A stretch of DNA of 64,000 bases. Source: Gemmatimonadota bacterium (GTDB taxonomy: Bacteria; Gemmatimonadota; Gemmatimonadetes; Gemmatimonadales; Gemmatimonadaceae). A program made the translations under genes and the position numbers. The notes beneath the pieces are model-generated. The model searched no databases. It was not told where the DNA came from and saw only the letters and a list, made by a program, of their open reading frames with translations. The DNA is taken from positions 124,001 to 188,000 of the forward strand of contig JAPLKS010000009.1 in assembly GCA_026387915.1 (NCBI GenBank), read 5' to 3'. Positions 184 through 23,972 of the stretch are shown piece after piece (the stretch's first letter is position 1; every line of letters starts with the position of its first letter).

Positions 184-860
184 TGGCCGACCTGCTCAAT
201 ACGATGACCGCGTGGCTCAGCGGCGTGCCCCTCTGGCAGCTGTATGCGATGTTGGGAGCGGTCGCGTTCATCGAAGGGATCTTTCCGCCGGTGCCGGCCG
301 ACTTGGTCGTGGCGCTCGGCAGTTTTCTTGCCGCCCGGAACGGCGCGGACTTCTACGCCACGGCGGGGGCGATCGTCATTGGCAGCGTCGCGGGGACGAT
401 GGTCGTGTACGCCGTTGCGCGGAAGTTTGGCGCCAACTGGTTGCATGCCCGCCTCAAGAAGGCGGGCATCGACAACCTCGAGCAGCGCCTGGAGCTGATG
501 TACTCGAAGTACGGAATGACCGCGTTGTTTGTGAGCCGCTTTCTTCCGGGGCTCCGCGCGATCACCCCACCGATGGCTGGCGCCACGCGCGTCCCACCGG
601 TACGCACCGCCGCGGTATTTCTCCTCGCCTCCGGCATTTGGTACGGCGCGATTGCGTGGATTGCCTTCCGCGTGGGTGACGATTGGGTGGCCATGCAGCG
701 CGCGCTCCGTCAGTTCTCCAGGCAGGTTGGGATTGTCGCCTTCGTCGCCGCTGGCTTGATGGCCGCGATCATCATCGTTGTTGTGCGTCGGCGAGCATCC
801 GCTCGTATTCAGCAGGCGATCGACGACGCCACTAACGGGGCCGGCACGCCCGAGGATTGA
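183..860 (+). CDS. DedA family integral membrane protein
   Basis: A 225-residue DedA/SNARE-associated membrane protein. Hydrophobic segments lie near residues 20-60, 140-165 and 175-205. The family signature is visible: a re-entrant-like G-x-F-P-P-x-P stretch near residue 35 and F-x-x-R-F-L-P-G-x-R near residue 115, whose Arg residues are known to matter in DedA transporters. The family is linked to undecaprenyl phosphate or phospholipid recycling and to membrane-potential maintenance; the substrate here is unknown. The start codon overlaps the ispF stop by one base, and the stop overlaps the start of the downstream recombinase (TGATG). The last 20 residues are polar and basic, so the tail is probably cytosolic. 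Confidence 0.9.
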   Translation: MADLLNTMTAWLSGVPLWQLYAMLGAVAFIEGIFPPVPADLVVALGSFLAARNGADFYATAGAIVIGSVAGTMVVYAVARKFGANWLHARLKKAGIDNLEQRLELMYSKYGMTALFVSRFLPGLRAITPPMAGATRVPPVRTAAVFLLASGIWYGAIAWIAFRVGDDWVAMQRALRQFSRQVGIVAFVAAGLMAAIIIVVVRRRASARIQQAIDDATNGAGTPED

Positions 861-1768
861 TGCCGTCAGACGGGACGGCACGCGCCTTTCAGCTCGAGCG
901 CTTTGGGGAGTATCTGGCGCTGGAGGACGGTGCCTCGCCCCGTACGATCGAAGCATACGGCCGAGACCTCAACCGATTTGTCGAGTGGGCGTCGGTCCGC
1001 TCGTTGGCCAATCCTGAGGCGGTTGAGTCCGCGCATCTGCGCGACTTCATCTACCACTTGAAGGACATGGGGCTCGCCCCGTCGAGCATTCGGCGGTCGG
1101 TATCGGCGCTCCGCACCTGGTTCAAGTTCCTTCAAGCCGAAGGACAACTGGCGCGCGACCCCAGTGAGCGGCTGGAAACGCCCAAGAAATGGCGGACGCT
1201 CCCGGAAGTCCTGACGGTGGACGAGGTAATTCGCATCATCAATGCCGTGTCGCTCGACGACCCATTGGCCTTTCGTGACCGCGCGATGCTGGAACTCGCG
1301 TACGGAGCTGGCCTGCGTGTGAGCGAATGGATCGGGCTCGACGTCAAGGACGTCATGCTTGAAGACGCCTTGGTGCGCGTATTCGGCAAAGGCTCCAAGG
1401 AACGGCTCGTGCCCATTGGCCGGTCCGCCATCGGCGCGGTGGGGATGTACCTGCGCGAACTGCGTCCGACGCTGGAACGAGGCGCGGGCAAGGGGAAACT
1501 CTTTCTCAACGCCCGCGGGAACCCACTCTCTCGTATGGGGGCGTGGCAGATCCTCCGGAAGTATGTGGAGCGGGCGGGTATTGAAAAACACGTAAGTCCC
1601 CACACGCTTCGCCACTCCTTTGCGACGCACCTGCTGGAGGGCGGGGCCGATCTACGGGCCGTGCAGGAAATGCTTGGGCACGTGGATATCTCCACGACAC
1701 AGATCTACACGCACGTCGACCGCGAGTATCTGCGCTCGGTTCACAAGCAGTTTCACCCGCGCGGCTGA
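860..1768 (+). CDS. xerC: Tyrosine recombinase XerC/XerD
   Basis: A 302-residue site-specific tyrosine recombinase of normal Xer length. An N-terminal SAM-like core-binding domain (about residues 10-95) precedes the catalytic domain. All catalytic residues can be read: Arg in GLRVSEW (near 152), Lys in the beta-hairpin GKGSKER, H-x-x-R in HTLRHSFATHL (near 248), His in LGHVD (near 275) and the nucleophilic Tyr in QIYTHV (near 282). Family role: resolves chromosome dimers at dif together with FtsK. A TTG lies one codon upstream, but ATG at 860 overlaps the DedA stop (TGATG) and is preferred. XerC and XerD cannot be told apart here. A dif-like site lies 21 kb away in this window. The 3' end overlaps the convergent gene by 16 bp. 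Confidence 0.93.
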   Translation: MPSDGTARAFQLERFGEYLALEDGASPRTIEAYGRDLNRFVEWASVRSLANPEAVESAHLRDFIYHLKDMGLAPSSIRRSVSALRTWFKFLQAEGQLARDPSERLETPKKWRTLPEVLTVDEVIRIINAVSLDDPLAFRDRAMLELAYGAGLRVSEWIGLDVKDVMLEDALVRVFGKGSKERLVPIGRSAIGAVGMYLRELRPTLERGAGKGKLFLNARGNPLSRMGAWQILRKYVERAGIEKHVSPHTLRHSFATHLLEGGADLRAVQEMLGHVDISTTQIYTHVDREYLRSVHKQFHPRG

Positions 1769-19044: not shown

Positions 19045-21469
19045 CCATCCTGCGACCTCCGCCGCACCCGAGGCGCCTCGTTTTGCTACGGCGTGGGCTG
19101 CGCTCGTGTATGCGCTCTGCGCGTTCTCGCTCGCCTGGCCGGCCCTCGCGGGCAAGTTCCTCGCGAATCCGCTGAGCGATCAATACAAAGCGGGCTATGC
19201 GTTCCGCGAGTTCGCCGCGGCGTATATGAAATCGCACGGCACCTTTCCGCAGTGGAACCCGTATCTCTTTGGCGGCATGCCGTTCGTGGCGGCCATGCAC
19301 GGCGACATTTTTTATCCGACGTTCCTGCTGCGACTCGTGATGCCGGTGGATGTCGCGATGACGTGGGGAATGATTCTCCACTTCTTTCTCTGCGGACTCG
19401 CCACGTACTGGTTCCTGCGGCAGGCGCCGCGGCTGTCGTTCCACGCGTCGCTTGTCGGTGGCGTGGCGTATATGATGGCGGGGTTTGTCTCATCGCTCCC
19501 CTCAGCTGGACACGACGGTAAACTATTTGTGTCGGCGCTCCTCCCGCTCACGCTCTTGGTGATTACGTGGGGCGTTCGCGACGGTAAGCGGTTCGCGTGG
19601 GGGTTTCTGGCGCTCGTCGTTGGCCTTGGCGTGCTCTCGCCGCACCCGCAACTGTTGCAGTATCTGCTGCTTGCCTCGGGCGCCTGGGCGCTGATGCTCG
19701 CGTTCGGTGGCGTCGATAAAGAAAAACTCGCGAGCAACGTGGCCATACAGCGCCTTGCCCTCGCCTTCGGCGCGGTCGTCGTTGGTGCCGCGATCGGCGC
19801 CATTCAGTATTTGCCGGTCAGCGAGTATGTGGCGTGGTCACCACGCTCCACGGCGCGCGGCTACGATTTTGCCACGAGCTATTCATTCCCTATTGAAGAG
19901 CTCATCAACACCTGGCTGCCGCAGTTCTCCGGTATTCTGCAGAACTACTGGGGCCGCAACGGCATTCATTTCCATAGTGAGTACATCGGCGTTGCCGTCA
20001 TCATTCTCGCGAGCGCCGCATTTGGGGCGGGGAACCCCCTCGCGCGCCGCCGCTTTCTCTGGTTCTGGACTGGCACCGCCGTCGTCTCGCTGTTCTGGGC
20101 CTTCGGTGGCAACACGCCGTTCTTCCAGATCATCTACAACATTGTTCCTGGCACCAAGTTCTTCCGCGCGCCGAGCACCATTTTCTACCTCACCACGTTC
20201 TCTGTGGCGGTGATGGCTGCGATTGGCACCGAACGGATTCTGCAGGGCAAAACGAGCGCCCGCTTCGCCTATGGATGGCTCGCGGCCGCAGTAGCGATCA
20301 CCTTGCTCGCCGTGGCTGGCGGGCTTACCGGAATCGGCGCGACGATTGTGAGCGGTTCCGGCTTTCCGCAGTTCGGTCCGGTCACGGCCATGGCCGAGCG
20401 CGTGGAAGCCAATGCCGACGCGGTGCGCTCCGGTGCATTCCGGGCACTCTTCTTTGCCGCACTCGCCTGCGGCGCACTGCTCCTCTTGCTGCGACGCACC
20501 ATTGCGCCTCGCGTCGCGGGATGGTTGCTCGTGGCGCTTTGCGCGATTGACCTCTGGAGCATTGAGCGGCTCTACTGGCAGTTCAATGAGCCCGCGTGGA
20601 AGATCTACAGCACCGACGCCACCACCGAATATCTCAAGCGTCTCACGCAGCCAGCGCGCACCATCGCCATTGGGTTCCCCAACCTGCCGATGTCGCCCTC
20701 CGACCCATTCCTCAAGTACGACGCCCTCATGGGGCATCGCGTGCGCATCTCGGCGGTGGGCTACCACGGCAACGAGCTCGGCCGCTATCAGCAGCTCAAT
20801 GGCGAAGAGCGCGGCTACGACCAGATTGGTAACCCAAGTTTCTGGGCGCTCACCAATACTGATTACATCCTCGTCAATACCGACACGCTCCCCATTGCCG
20901 GCGCCACTCGGGTGATTGGCCCCGTGATGAACGCCGCCGGCACCAACGTCACGTTGTTCAAACTCCCGGGCGAACATCCGTTCGCGTGGGTGGCACCGGT
21001 GATTACTAAATACGGTGACAATGCCGTGATCGAGGCCGCGCGCGCTACGAATTTTCCGGTGCGCAGCATCGCCATTTTCGACACCACATCCAAGGTGTCC
21101 GCCGAAACGGTAAGCAAGCTGCCGGAACCGCTGGCGATCACGACCCACGTGACCGCCTACGAGGCCGGTCACATCGCGCTGACGCTGAGCGCGCCAGCAC
21201 CCAAGGGCTCGGCGCTCGTCGTTTCCGAAAACTTTTATCCTGGCTGGAAGGTGAAGGTAGACGGCAAACCCGCCACCGCCGAACGCGCGGATTTGGTGTT
21301 GATTGGCGTGGCGCTCCCGGAAGGCGCGAAGCAGGTGGAACTCACCTTTGACAGTGACGTGTACCAGCGCGGCAAATCGATCACCGTGGTGGCGCTCTTG
21401 ATCGCGCTGCTCGCAATGGGCGGCGGCGCGGTACTCGACCGCCGAGCGATGGTGGGAGGAGCGGCCTAA
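19028..21469 (+). CDS. YfhO-type GT-C membrane glycosyltransferase
   Basis: 813 residues with about 12 hydrophobic segments and a long periplasmic C-terminal domain (about residues 520-780). The first extracytoplasmic loop has the YfhO pattern L-S-D-Q-Y-K-A-G-Y followed by F-P-Q-W-N-P-Y-L-F-G-G-M-P-F, where the acidic residue is expected to be catalytic in GT-C enzymes. YfhO of Bacillus transfers a sugar from undecaprenyl-phosphate-sugar, made by the GT2 enzyme CsbB, to a surface polymer. Here two GT2 enzymes flank the gene, but a diderm has no lipoteichoic acid, so the acceptor is unknown. ATG 19028 was chosen because upstream in-frame sequence lies inside the previous gene. The stop overlaps the next ATG by one base. 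Confidence 0.85.
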   Translation: MARTPDHPATSAAPEAPRFATAWAALVYALCAFSLAWPALAGKFLANPLSDQYKAGYAFREFAAAYMKSHGTFPQWNPYLFGGMPFVAAMHGDIFYPTFLLRLVMPVDVAMTWGMILHFFLCGLATYWFLRQAPRLSFHASLVGGVAYMMAGFVSSLPSAGHDGKLFVSALLPLTLLVITWGVRDGKRFAWGFLALVVGLGVLSPHPQLLQYLLLASGAWALMLAFGGVDKEKLASNVAIQRLALAFGAVVVGAAIGAIQYLPVSEYVAWSPRSTARGYDFATSYSFPIEELINTWLPQFSGILQNYWGRNGIHFHSEYIGVAVIILASAAFGAGNPLARRRFLWFWTGTAVVSLFWAFGGNTPFFQIIYNIVPGTKFFRAPSTIFYLTTFSVAVMAAIGTERILQGKTSARFAYGWLAAAVAITLLAVAGGLTGIGATIVSGSGFPQFGPVTAMAERVEANADAVRSGAFRALFFAALACGALLLLLRRTIAPRVAGWLLVALCAIDLWSIERLYWQFNEPAWKIYSTDATTEYLKRLTQPARTIAIGFPNLPMSPSDPFLKYDALMGHRVRISAVGYHGNELGRYQQLNGEERGYDQIGNPSFWALTNTDYILVNTDTLPIAGATRVIGPVMNAAGTNVTLFKLPGEHPFAWVAPVITKYGDNAVIEAARATNFPVRSIAIFDTTSKVSAETVSKLPEPLAITTHVTAYEAGHIALTLSAPAPKGSALVVSENFYPGWKVKVDGKPATAERADLVLIGVALPEGAKQVELTFDSDVYQRGKSITVVALLIALLAMGGGAVLDRRAMVGGAA

Positions 21470-22194
21470 TGTCAGAGAAAGCGTTAGTGATTGTTCCGAC
21501 GTACAACGAAAAAGAAAACATCGCCAAGATCATTGGCGTGGTGCTGGTGCAGGACCCTCGCATTGACGTGCTGGTGGTGGACGACAACTCGCCCGACGGC
21601 ACCGGCGACATTGTGGCCGCCCTTGGCGCTTCGGACCCCCGGGTGCACTTGCTCCGCCGCGCCGGCAAAATGGGGCTCGGCACCGCGTACCGCGACGGCT
21701 TTGGCTGGGCGCTCAAGAACCCCGAGTACGAGTACATCTTTGAGATGGACGCCGACTTCTCGCACGACCCGGCGCACCTTCCCAAGTTCCTTGAGGCCGC
21801 CCAGGGGGCGGACTTTGTACTCGGGAGCCGCTATCTGGACGGAAACGTTACGGTGGTGGACTGGCCCATGAAGCGATTGCTGCTGAGCTACTTCGCCAAC
21901 GTGTATGCCCGTTGGGTGACCGGCCTCAAGCTTTGGGACGCCACCGGTGGCTACAAATGCTTTCACCGGCGGGTGCTGGAGGCCATCGACCTCTCGGACG
22001 TGCGGTCCAACGGCTACGCCTTTCAAATTGAGATGAGCTTCCGGGCTATCCGCAAAGGATTCAAGCCAAAGGAAATCGCCATCACCTTTACCGACCGCAC
22101 ACACGGCACGAGCAAGATGAGCAAGAACATCGTGCGCGAGGCCATCTGGATGGTGTGGCGGCTCCGGTGGTGGGCGATCATAGGCCGGGTATGA
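21469..22194 (+). CDS. Polyprenol monophosphomannose synthase-like GT2 enzyme
   Basis: 241 residues, single-domain DPM1 type. Motifs: V-I-V-P-T-Y-N-E-K-E-N-I at residues 6-17, V-V-D-D-N-S-P-D-G-T, F-E-M-D-A-D-F-S-H-D-P with the metal-binding D-A-D, and D-A-T-G-G-Y-K-C-F near 160. It lacks C-terminal membrane segments, like archaeal/eukaryal short forms and the mycobacterial Ppm1 catalytic domain. It probably transfers a hexose (mannose in characterised members) from a nucleotide sugar to a polyprenyl phosphate, feeding the adjacent YfhO-type transferase. ATG 21469 overlaps the preceding TAA. Confidence 0.9.
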   Translation: MSEKALVIVPTYNEKENIAKIIGVVLVQDPRIDVLVVDDNSPDGTGDIVAALGASDPRVHLLRRAGKMGLGTAYRDGFGWALKNPEYEYIFEMDADFSHDPAHLPKFLEAAQGADFVLGSRYLDGNVTVVDWPMKRLLLSYFANVYARWVTGLKLWDATGGYKCFHRRVLEAIDLSDVRSNGYAFQIEMSFRAIRKGFKPKEIAITFTDRTHGTSKMSKNIVREAIWMVWRLRWWAIIGRV

Positions 22195-22225
22195 GGAGCG
22201 TCGTGACCGACACGGACCGGGTACC

Positions 22226-23059
22226 ATGACCCAGACCAACATCCCAGCGGCGGGCCGCCGATTTTGGAAGATGAGCGGGTCGGGGAACGACTTTGTGTTC
22301 TTTGACGCGAGGTCGGAGCCAGCCGGTGCGCTGGCCGAACCAGGGGCGATTGGCCGTATGTGCGCCCGGGCCACCGGCATAGGTGCTGATGGAGTTGTGT
22401 TCCTTCAACCTGATGCCACAGAAGCATTTAGGATACGTTACTTCAACCGAGATGGGAGCCTTGGCGAGCTCTGCGGCAACGCCTCGCTCTGTACCACGCG
22501 GCTCGCGCGGGAGCTCGGGATTGTGCAGGCCGAGAGCTTCCGCTTTGCCACGGACGCTGGCGCTATCAGCGCTCGGTTTGTGGGATCGGAGCCTGAAATC
22601 GACCTGCAGCCCGTCTCAGAGCTCAGGTTGGAGGCCGGGATTGAGCTTGCCTCGGGCGAAAAAAGGATGGGATTCGCCAATACCGGCGTGCCGCATCTCG
22701 TTGTGCTGGTTGGCGATACATCGTCTGTAGACGTAGTCGGCCGCGGTCAGCCGCTCCGATGGCACCCGAGCCTCGCAGCCGGGGCCAATGTCAACTTTGT
22801 AGCTGCTAACCCCGGTGGTCCGTGGAAGATGCGGACCTACGAACGAGGTGTTGAGGGCGAGACGCTGGCTTGCGGAACTGGGGCTGTGGCGACCGCCGTT
22901 CTGCTACGCGCCTGGCGGCTGAGTGGGGCAGAGACCGCCCTCGAAACTAGATCAGGTCGGGTGCTGACGGTCACGTTGCGGGACGCTGACGGCGCCATCA
23001 AGCCGTCACTGCGCGGCGAAGGGCGGATCGTGTTCACCGGAGCGCTCGGCGAGAGCTAG
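22226..23059 (+). CDS. dapF: Diaminopimelate epimerase
   Basis: 277 residues. It interconverts LL- and meso-diaminopimelate for lysine and peptidoglycan synthesis. Both catalytic Cys residues are present: the first in E-L-C-G-N-A-S-L-C near residue 80 and the second in L-A-C-G-T-G-A-V-A-T near 215. The first motif departs from the usual C-G-N-G-x-R-C. K-M-S-G-S-G-N-D-F-V-F at the N-terminus is typical. The ATG is 31 bases after the previous stop. It is the last + strand gene; beyond it lies the dif-like site and the switch to - strand genes. Confidence 0.92.
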   Translation: MTQTNIPAAGRRFWKMSGSGNDFVFFDARSEPAGALAEPGAIGRMCARATGIGADGVVFLQPDATEAFRIRYFNRDGSLGELCGNASLCTTRLARELGIVQAESFRFATDAGAISARFVGSEPEIDLQPVSELRLEAGIELASGEKRMGFANTGVPHLVVLVGDTSSVDVVGRGQPLRWHPSLAAGANVNFVAANPGGPWKMRTYERGVEGETLACGTGAVATAVLLRAWRLSGAETALETRSGRVLTVTLRDADGAIKPSLRGEGRIVFTGALGES

Positions 23060-23181
23060 CTCCACCAGCCGCCATTGGGCCCGCTGAGCCGTCCAAGAGG
23101 GTCCAGCCAAGGGAAGGTAGCCTAACTGCTTATGGTTGAAGGGAGTTATGAACTCACTTTCCCACATGAATCCTGTAGTTT

Positions 23182-23209
23182 AGTTTACATAATACATATT
23201 ATACGTAGT
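23182..23209 (-). other. dif: Probable dif site (chromosome dimer resolution, XerC/XerD target)
   Basis: On the - strand this 28-bp site reads as an 11-bp arm ACTACGTATAA, a 6-bp centre TATGTA and an 11-bp arm TTATGTAAACT. The last arm is identical, as I recall it, to the XerD-binding arm of Bacillus subtilis dif, and differs from the E. coli arm (TTATGTTAAAT) at two positions. The other arm keeps the A-x-x-x-C-G-x-A-T-A-A core of XerC-binding arms. The arms are partly palindromic around the 6-bp spacer, as required. It lies in an AT-rich patch between convergent genes, at the exact point where gene direction changes from + to - across the window. Confidence 0.85.
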
Positions 23210-23221
23210 TCAAGGGACTGG

Positions 23222-23262
23222 CAAAAGAAAGGGGCGGTCCGGCGAATAGCTGGACCGCCCCC
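23222..23262 (-). terminator. Intrinsic terminator of the TPR gene
   Basis: A perfect 10-bp inverted repeat (23231-23240 and 23252-23261, GGGGCGGTCC with GGACCGCCCC) encloses an 11-base loop. On the - strand it is followed by TTTCTTTT. It lies 48 bases past the stop of the TPR gene. On the + strand the trailing CACTTTG is poor, so it mainly serves the - strand, although it may also slow dapF read-through. Confidence 0.8.
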
Positions 23263-23309
23263 ACTTTGTAGCGCCAGCTCGGCGCCAGTTGTCGAGCTAT
23301 TCGCCCTAC

Positions 23310-23972
23310 TTACTTGGCAGCAACGGCCGTCAGCTCACCCACTCGCACCTTGGCTTCGGCCATCACCGGCGAGTCCGGGTTGCTTGCAATCGACTGCCAG
23401 ATCTTGAGAGCGTCGTCCTTCTTGCCAGCAGCCATCAGCGTCCGAGCGGCGTCGGCCAGGTACAGATCCTTGTCGGCTGGGAACGCGGCCCGATCGGCGG
23501 CGGCGCGGTAATGCTTGGCGGCCTCGTCGAGCTTGTTGTTGTCGGCATAGCCGGCGCCCATCAGCGCTTCAATCGACGCCTGGAAGCTCGAGGCCCCCGA
23601 CGCGCCCTGAGCGGCCTGGAGCACCTTGAGCCCTTCGTCGAACTTGCCAGCTTTGTAGTAGGTCTGCGCCAACAGCATCGACCCCTGAACACCGGCGGCC
23701 GTGCTGCCGTAACCCTGCACCAGCTTCTGCAGGTCGGTCTGCGCCAGCGCCATGTTCCCGCCGTAGAACGAGTTCTCGGCTTGGTTCAACGCGATCTCCG
23801 CGCGGGCCTGCTTCTTCTGGTTGGACTGATCCACGAGCACGTAGATCACGCCAAGGGCCGCCAGCGCAATCACGCCAATGGTGATTTCACGGCTGCGAGC
23901 ACGAATCGTGTCCATCAACGAGTCGGCGTCCAAATCCATCGGCGGCAGCGCCGCATCTCCGGTCTTCGTCAT
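23310..23972 (-). CDS. Membrane-anchored tetratricopeptide-repeat protein (YfgM-like)
   Basis: 220 residues from ATG 23972. A short acidic N-terminus precedes one membrane segment (about residues 30-50, G-V-I-A-L-A-A-L-G-V-I-Y-V-L-V). The rest, outside the cytoplasm, is helical with TPR-like repeats: N-Q-A-E-N-S-F-Y-G-G-N, T-Y-Y-K-A-G-K-F-D-E-G, A-G-Y-A-D-N-N-K-L-D-E-A-A-K-H-Y and T-L-M-A-A-G-K-K-D-D-A. The layout (N-in anchor plus TPR_21-type repeats) matches YfgM/ancillary SecYEG-associated chaperones, but no partner gene is adjacent. No Shine-Dalgarno precedes the ATG; instead the leader carries a sequence equal to the 16S rRNA tail (see findings). Residues beyond the ATG upstream look non-coding. 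Confidence 0.78.
   Translation of the reverse strand: MTKTGDAALPPMDLDADSLMDTIRARSREITIGVIALAALGVIYVLVDQSNQKKQARAEIALNQAENSFYGGNMALAQTDLQKLVQGYGSTAAGVQGSMLLAQTYYKAGKFDEGLKVLQAAQGASGASSFQASIEALMGAGYADNNKLDEAAKHYRAAADRAAFPADKDLYLADAARTLMAAGKKDDALKIWQSIASNPDSPVMAEAKVRVGELTAVAAK

Follow-up and report, generated by a model that had tools for sequence, protein, structure and literature searches.

The stretch of DNA analysed here (the window) comprises 64,000 nucleotides and corresponds to positions 124001-188000 of contig C9 (307,536 bp) of genome G000. It contains a 28-bp dif site on the minus strand at 23182-23209 (147,182 of C9), situated between two genes that converge on it. On the XerD side lies dapF (22226-23059, plus strand), which encodes diaminopimelate epimerase (TIGR00652, 184.5 bits; cut-off, 114.65) and is preceded by a glycosyltransferase family 2 gene (21469-22194, plus strand) belonging to the conserved terminus neighbourhood. 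The neighbour on the XerC side is a TPR protein gene (23310-23972, minus strand), which is conserved beside dif. Between this gene and dif, a GC-rich inverted repeat on the minus strand at 23231-23261 (GGGGCGGTCC..GGACCGCCCC), followed by a T-rich stretch, is the probable terminator of the TPR gene. An additional element was observed in the interval between dapF and dif, namely a DnaA-box-like 9-mer, TTTCCCACA, at 23158-23166 on the plus strand (TGTGGGAAA on the dif strand). This 9-mer lies 15 nt beyond the XerD arm and reads toward dif.

On the minus strand, the dif site reads ACTACGTATAA-TATGTA-TTATGTAAACT and consists of an XerC arm (23199-23209), a centre (23193-23198) and an XerD arm (23182-23192); the plus strand reads AGTTTACATAA-TACATA-TTATACGTAGT. 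Both the position and the 11-6-11 layout given in the original prediction were borne out, and the inner ends of the arms are the ATAA/TTAT of dif sites. One arm is identical to what we take to be an arm of the Bacillus subtilis dif. With up to three mismatches allowed, the 28-mer is its own sole match in the window and in the whole genome (3,584,444 bp in 23 contigs), whereas no match to it was obtained at the same threshold in 100 shuffles of the window. The single-copy check that had been proposed for the 28-mer thus returned one match in 3.58 Mb, as expected of a site present once per chromosome. The proteins that act at a chromosomal dif, XerC, XerD and an FtsK with a gamma domain, are all encoded. 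A gene in the window that had been described as XerC/D (860-1768, plus strand) could be identified as xerD (TIGR02225, 363.5 bits; cut-off, 329.6), XerC is encoded on contig C7 (TIGR02224, 337.2 bits; cut-off, 335.15), and the genome has one FtsK with a gamma domain. Three tyrosine recombinases score above the Pfam cut-off in this genome, the third being an integron-type integrase (TIGR02249, 417 bits) on the small contig C16 (L098:1324-2541, minus strand of the locus).

The genes called in the window with a codon model switch strand at dif, with 20 on the plus strand and one on the minus strand to its left, and 36 on the minus strand and none on the plus strand to its right. This is the same picture as that drawn originally, in which 21 of 22 genes to the left were plus and all 39 to the right were minus. 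Outside the window, nearly all genes of C9 are on the plus strand from ∼60 to 147 kb and most are on the minus strand from 147 to 300 kb. The cumulative GC skew of C9 (307,536 bp) reaches its maximum at 151,560, only 4.4 kb from dif and in keeping with the extreme that was predicted near the site; the skew of the left replichore on this contig is weak, and the maximum by itself is not decisive. The KOPS-like sequence GGGNAGGG also shows the polarity anticipated for a terminus (19 versus 3 occurrences), although this count is confounded with the coding strand because the genes run in the same direction.

Complete genomes of relatives were used to relate dif to the position of dnaA, and dif was found near the dnaA antipode in two of four and within the GC-skew flip in a third. 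In G033 (5,311,527-bp chromosome), dif at 3,765,239 is 100 kb from the antipode of dnaA (∼3,865,425), and the GC skew sampled across the chromosome shows no clear switch. In G105, with the main contig taken as the chromosome, this distance is ∼67 kb. In G071 (4,636,964 bp), dif at 1.930 Mb falls within the interval over which the sampled GC skew changes sign, being positive as far as 1.82 Mb and negative from 2.10 Mb onward. The exception is G220, where dif lies 1.44 Mb from dnaA on a chromosome of 5.51 Mb. The assignment of the site to the chromosome terminus is supported by the strand switch and skew maximum on C9, and by its position in complete relatives, from which the distances to the dnaA antipode are taken.

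Both dif arms, with up to three mismatches, were detected in 39 of 61 genomes (that of the window and 60 relatives), with no control matches. Of 298 genomes sampled from the phylum, 253 (85%) contained a broader dif pattern, as against about a dozen with control matches. Comparison with the dif of other Gemmatimonadota, as had been suggested, recovered the same site across the phylum. In most Gemmatimonadales loci, a TPR gene and dapF flank dif and converge on it (two clusters, with 78 and 77 members, in 96 loci), and conservation at the same locus in related species is thus what would be expected of a chromosomal dif. The order glycosyltransferase-dapF-dif-TPR (21469-23972 in the window) is kept over the order, and in the majority of the loci examined one and the same gene pair marks the terminus. 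In other families, the TPR gene or the glycosyltransferase gene still adjoins dif in many genomes; a conserved 102-residue match considered as a TPR protein was rejected, as it is really the glycosyltransferase. At L010, L011, L014 and L015, no more than ∼250 nt separate dif from the end of a contig, as though assemblies were interrupted at or near the site, and such breaks in several relatives could reflect repeated copies or inserted elements. Taken as a whole, the 28-mer is a real chromosomal dif, at which linked sister chromosomes separate. The presence of dif in Gemmatimonadota is in itself ordinary and was already predicted for the phylum, in the single Gemmatimonadetes genome of one then available (Kono 2011; PMC3025954).

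A motif beyond the XerD arm first became visible in the aligned flanks of 30 relatives. Its consensus is TGTGGnnAA, or TTnTCCACA or TTTCCCACA when read on the other strand. Box occurrence was counted in 31-nt XerD-side flanks of 143 sites of families f1 and f2, taken from the phylum-wide search with evident chance matches left out. TGTGGnnAA was present in 108 of these 143 Gemmatimonadales flanks, at no offset other than 5/6 or 15/16 nt beyond the 28-mer, compared with a mean of 0.5 and a maximum of 3 of 143 in shuffled flanks. The looser GTGGnnA was found in 139 of the 143, and approximately one-quarter of the Gemmatimonadales sites have no more than a degenerate box. At the dif of relatives, the most abundant types were TTCTCCACA (53) and TTTCCCACA (27). 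The columns surrounding the main box carry little information, except for the second slot 10 bp nearer dif, and shared ancestry of the flanks therefore does not explain the box. Among 30 loci that were not selected for the box, 23 strict outward boxes occupied these same offsets on the XerD side (in 22 loci), and no strict box was found within 300 nt on the XerC side of the same loci.

The spacing between dif and the dapF stop codon ranges from 25 to >500 nt, whereas the offset of the box from dif is constant. In families f4 and f6, GTGG[AG]nAA occurs at the same two offsets in nine of ten loci; in four of these, an inverted partner follows after a further 17-27 nt. The 5 kb retrieved for f4/f6 loci contained no match to dapF. 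On these sequence comparisons, the box belongs to dif and not to the neighbouring gene. A DnaA-box-like partner is thus present at a fixed distance from dif in well over a hundred related species.

The resemblance of this element to DnaA boxes was assessed by comparison with the region of dnaA. In all 10 genomes tested, TTnTCCACA or TTTCCCACA lies immediately upstream of dnaA, compared with 16 occurrences in 1.36 Mb of background. The commonest types at the start of dnaA are TTATCCACA and TTTTCCACA, and those at dif are TTCTCCACA and TTTCCCACA, a difference in subtype mix that may point to another affinity or to another protein. Of the five dif-side types, four, the two commonest among them, nevertheless also occur near dnaA in one genome or more. 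In G033, both TTCTCCACA and TTTCCCACA are near dnaA; the copy in the window, which differs from TTATCCACA at two positions, is therefore of a type found upstream of dnaA. An invariant TCCAC/CCCAC core with a variable third base fits the DnaA boxes of high-GC bacteria, and the canonical DnaA domain IV motif GGRDHSTV was present in all four genomes checked. Given that the dif-side element is a 9-mer close to TTATNCACA that also occurs at dnaA/oriC of the same genomes, it is assigned to the DnaA-box type, and we infer from its sequence that DnaA would bind it.

A separate observation concerns a 635-residue protein with two tandem DnaA-type AAA+ domains (TIGR00362 in two stretches) and no obvious DNA-binding domain IV, encoded at ∼94.4-96.3 kb of contig C13 of G000 (L080:1150-3057, minus strand of the locus). 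Similar double-domain frames occur in G030, G071, G105, G220 and G055. The dif-side box is present in G072 and G073 without such a protein.

Boxes beside dif were also sought in other lineages. Within 300 nt of dif, a strict 9-mer was carried by six of 30 loci of families f5, f8 and f10. All six belong to f5, where the element recurs in some genera, and in each the box lies on the XerC side, directed outward, 9-11 nt from dif. The XerD-side box is absent from most f5 genomes and from the sampled genomes of f7, f8, f10 and f11. A composite pattern of dif plus box was scanned over a collection of 84,980 species, and among the matches listed most were from Gemmatimonadota, with others from Peregrinibacteria/Peribacteria (CPR). 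The 15 Peregrinibacteria/Peribacteria genomes examined each have one site, with the box ∼8-11 nt beyond the arm, and some Peribacteria have boxes on both sides of dif, each directed outward. In a class-wide sample that was not selected for the box, it was found in four of eight newly met genomes with this dif core. In the Gemmatimonadales, f5 and Peribacteria arrangements alike, the TTnTCCACA strand of the box points toward dif. Matches to the composite pattern in Clostridia, at offset 4, were dismissed as chance, being a small number of recurrent, homologous stretches with the appearance of coding sequence, and a match in Bacillus looks like the DnaA-box cluster of an origin. The flanks of the Escherichia coli dif contain no box. 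Given its absence from E. coli, most f5 and the sampled f7, f8, f10 and f11 genomes, the box is not a general requirement of dif function. As a side observation, the four genomes of the class-wide sample that carry the box also share another conserved element, TGTCAATTGA, on the XerC side; this Peribacteria element was noted at L166, L167, L178, L186, L187, L206 and L232.

These data can be accommodated in a model that extends the established pathway, in which, according to PMC5357621 and PMC13220808, XerCD acting at dif and activated by FtsK resolves chromosome dimers. In the model, XerC and XerD would bind the two arms of dif, FtsK moving DNA at the division septum would activate XerD, and recombination between two copies of dif would convert a chromosome dimer into two monomers. 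DnaA occupying the box, the near edge of which is 5 to 16 nt from the XerD arm, could touch or sterically affect the complex of XerD with FtsK-gamma. Bound there, it might hold dif inactive until late in the cycle, help synapsis or act on fork fusion. A direct physical role is favoured over simple titration of DnaA because the two slots are separated by 10 bp, which places them on one face of the helix, and the polarity is fixed. It is considered probable that the chromosomal dif has a fixed-distance DnaA-box companion at which DnaA is bound as an accessory regulator of dimer resolution or terminus events. A more far-reaching version, in which the initiator DnaA binds beside dif and controls dimer resolution or fork fusion, and in which the arrangement arose or switched sides several times (XerD side in Gemmatimonadales, XerC side in a subgroup of f5, and Peribacteria), is put forward tentatively, as a possibility falling somewhat short of an even chance.

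The dif may be genuine and the 9-mer bound by some other protein, such as a terminus or Xer accessory factor, or used as an extra recombinase contact, its likeness to a DnaA box being coincidental. Such an explanation appears unlikely, though it carries appreciable weight: the commonest 9-mers at dif (TTCTCCACA, TTTCCCACA) differ from those at dnaA (TTATCCACA, TTTTCCACA), but four of the five dif-side types recur near dnaA in one genome or more, the conserved core and variable third base are those of high-GC DnaA boxes, and no other candidate factor was found. Were the 9-mer instead a 3'-untranslated, terminator or promoter element of dapF, it would lie beside dif merely through the conserved dapF-dif-TPR order. 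The flanking of dif by dapF and the TPR gene in most loci would agree with this, as would the inverted partner copy in some families, with which a hairpin might form. The distance to the dapF stop codon, however, varies from 25 to >500 nt against a fixed box offset, f4/f6 retain the box at the same offsets with no adjoining dapF, and f5 and Peribacteria differ either in the side of dif that bears the box or in gene context. A dapF 3'-untranslated origin is largely refuted by the first two of these observations, and the reading as a whole is very improbable.

The location of the 9-mer on the XerD side, where FtsK-gamma acts, and its fixed polarity would also suit an FtsK-orienting or FtsK-loading sequence of the KOPS kind. 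KOPS are frequent along chromosome arms, whereas TTnTCCACA/TTTCCCACA occurs only five times in the 307 kb of C9, and the expected polarity is already displayed by GGGNAGGG (19 versus 3); a KOPS function was rejected on account of this rarity and is regarded as highly unlikely. The notion that the 28-mer is itself a chance match, or the Xer attachment site of an integrated mobile element, draws on the use of dif-like sites by mobile elements elsewhere and on the location of the site at a contig end in some relatives. With one copy at the terminus, next to dapF and the TPR gene as in the same neighbourhood over the order, and a counterpart in 85% of the sampled genomes of the phylum, the site contradicts such a reading by its position and conservation, and the probability of this is considered negligible.

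The favoured reading, that of a dif accompanied by a DnaA box, would have consequences beyond this locus. Descriptions of dif usually present it as a 28-bp site that is sufficient in itself and has FtsK as its sole regulator, and a literature search with limited coverage of subscription journals yielded no report linking a DnaA box to dif. The new part of the present analysis is the conserved DnaA-box-like element next to dif, which was overlooked in the original prediction. A DnaA-box partner in fixed register suggests that control of initiation and processing of the terminus may be physically linked in some bacteria; if so, a single protein, DnaA, would act in the replication cycle both when it begins and when it ends. 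In addition, dif plus box provides a sharper search pattern for the terminus in fragmented genomes of the phylum.

Comparison with known systems places the site among those of the E. coli/B. subtilis type, with which it shares the 28-bp 11-6-11 layout, single copy, location at the terminus and strand switch, and a genome encoding XerC, XerD and FtsK-gamma. The chromosomal dif is described in two reviews (PMC5357621, PMC13220808) as acting with XerCD and FtsK. Unlike the site described here, that of E. coli has no adjoining 9-mer of the DnaA-box type. The plasmid sites cer (ArgR/PepA) and psi (ArcA/PepA) are similar in combining a Xer core with an adjacent site for a regulator whose main job lies elsewhere, and the fixed register and polarity of the box would fit an accessory sequence of this kind. 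However, the accessory DNA of cer is ∼180 bp and binds PepA/ArgR (PMC5357621), whereas the present element is one 9-mer, or two within 25 bp, on the XerD side of a chromosomal site. The boxes of oriC and the dnaA promoter, datA and DARS belong to the same 9-mer class, members of which lie immediately upstream of dnaA in the genomes tested. By contrast with these, the element described here is located at the terminus and consists of no more than a single box or a pair, with distance and polarity fixed relative to dif.
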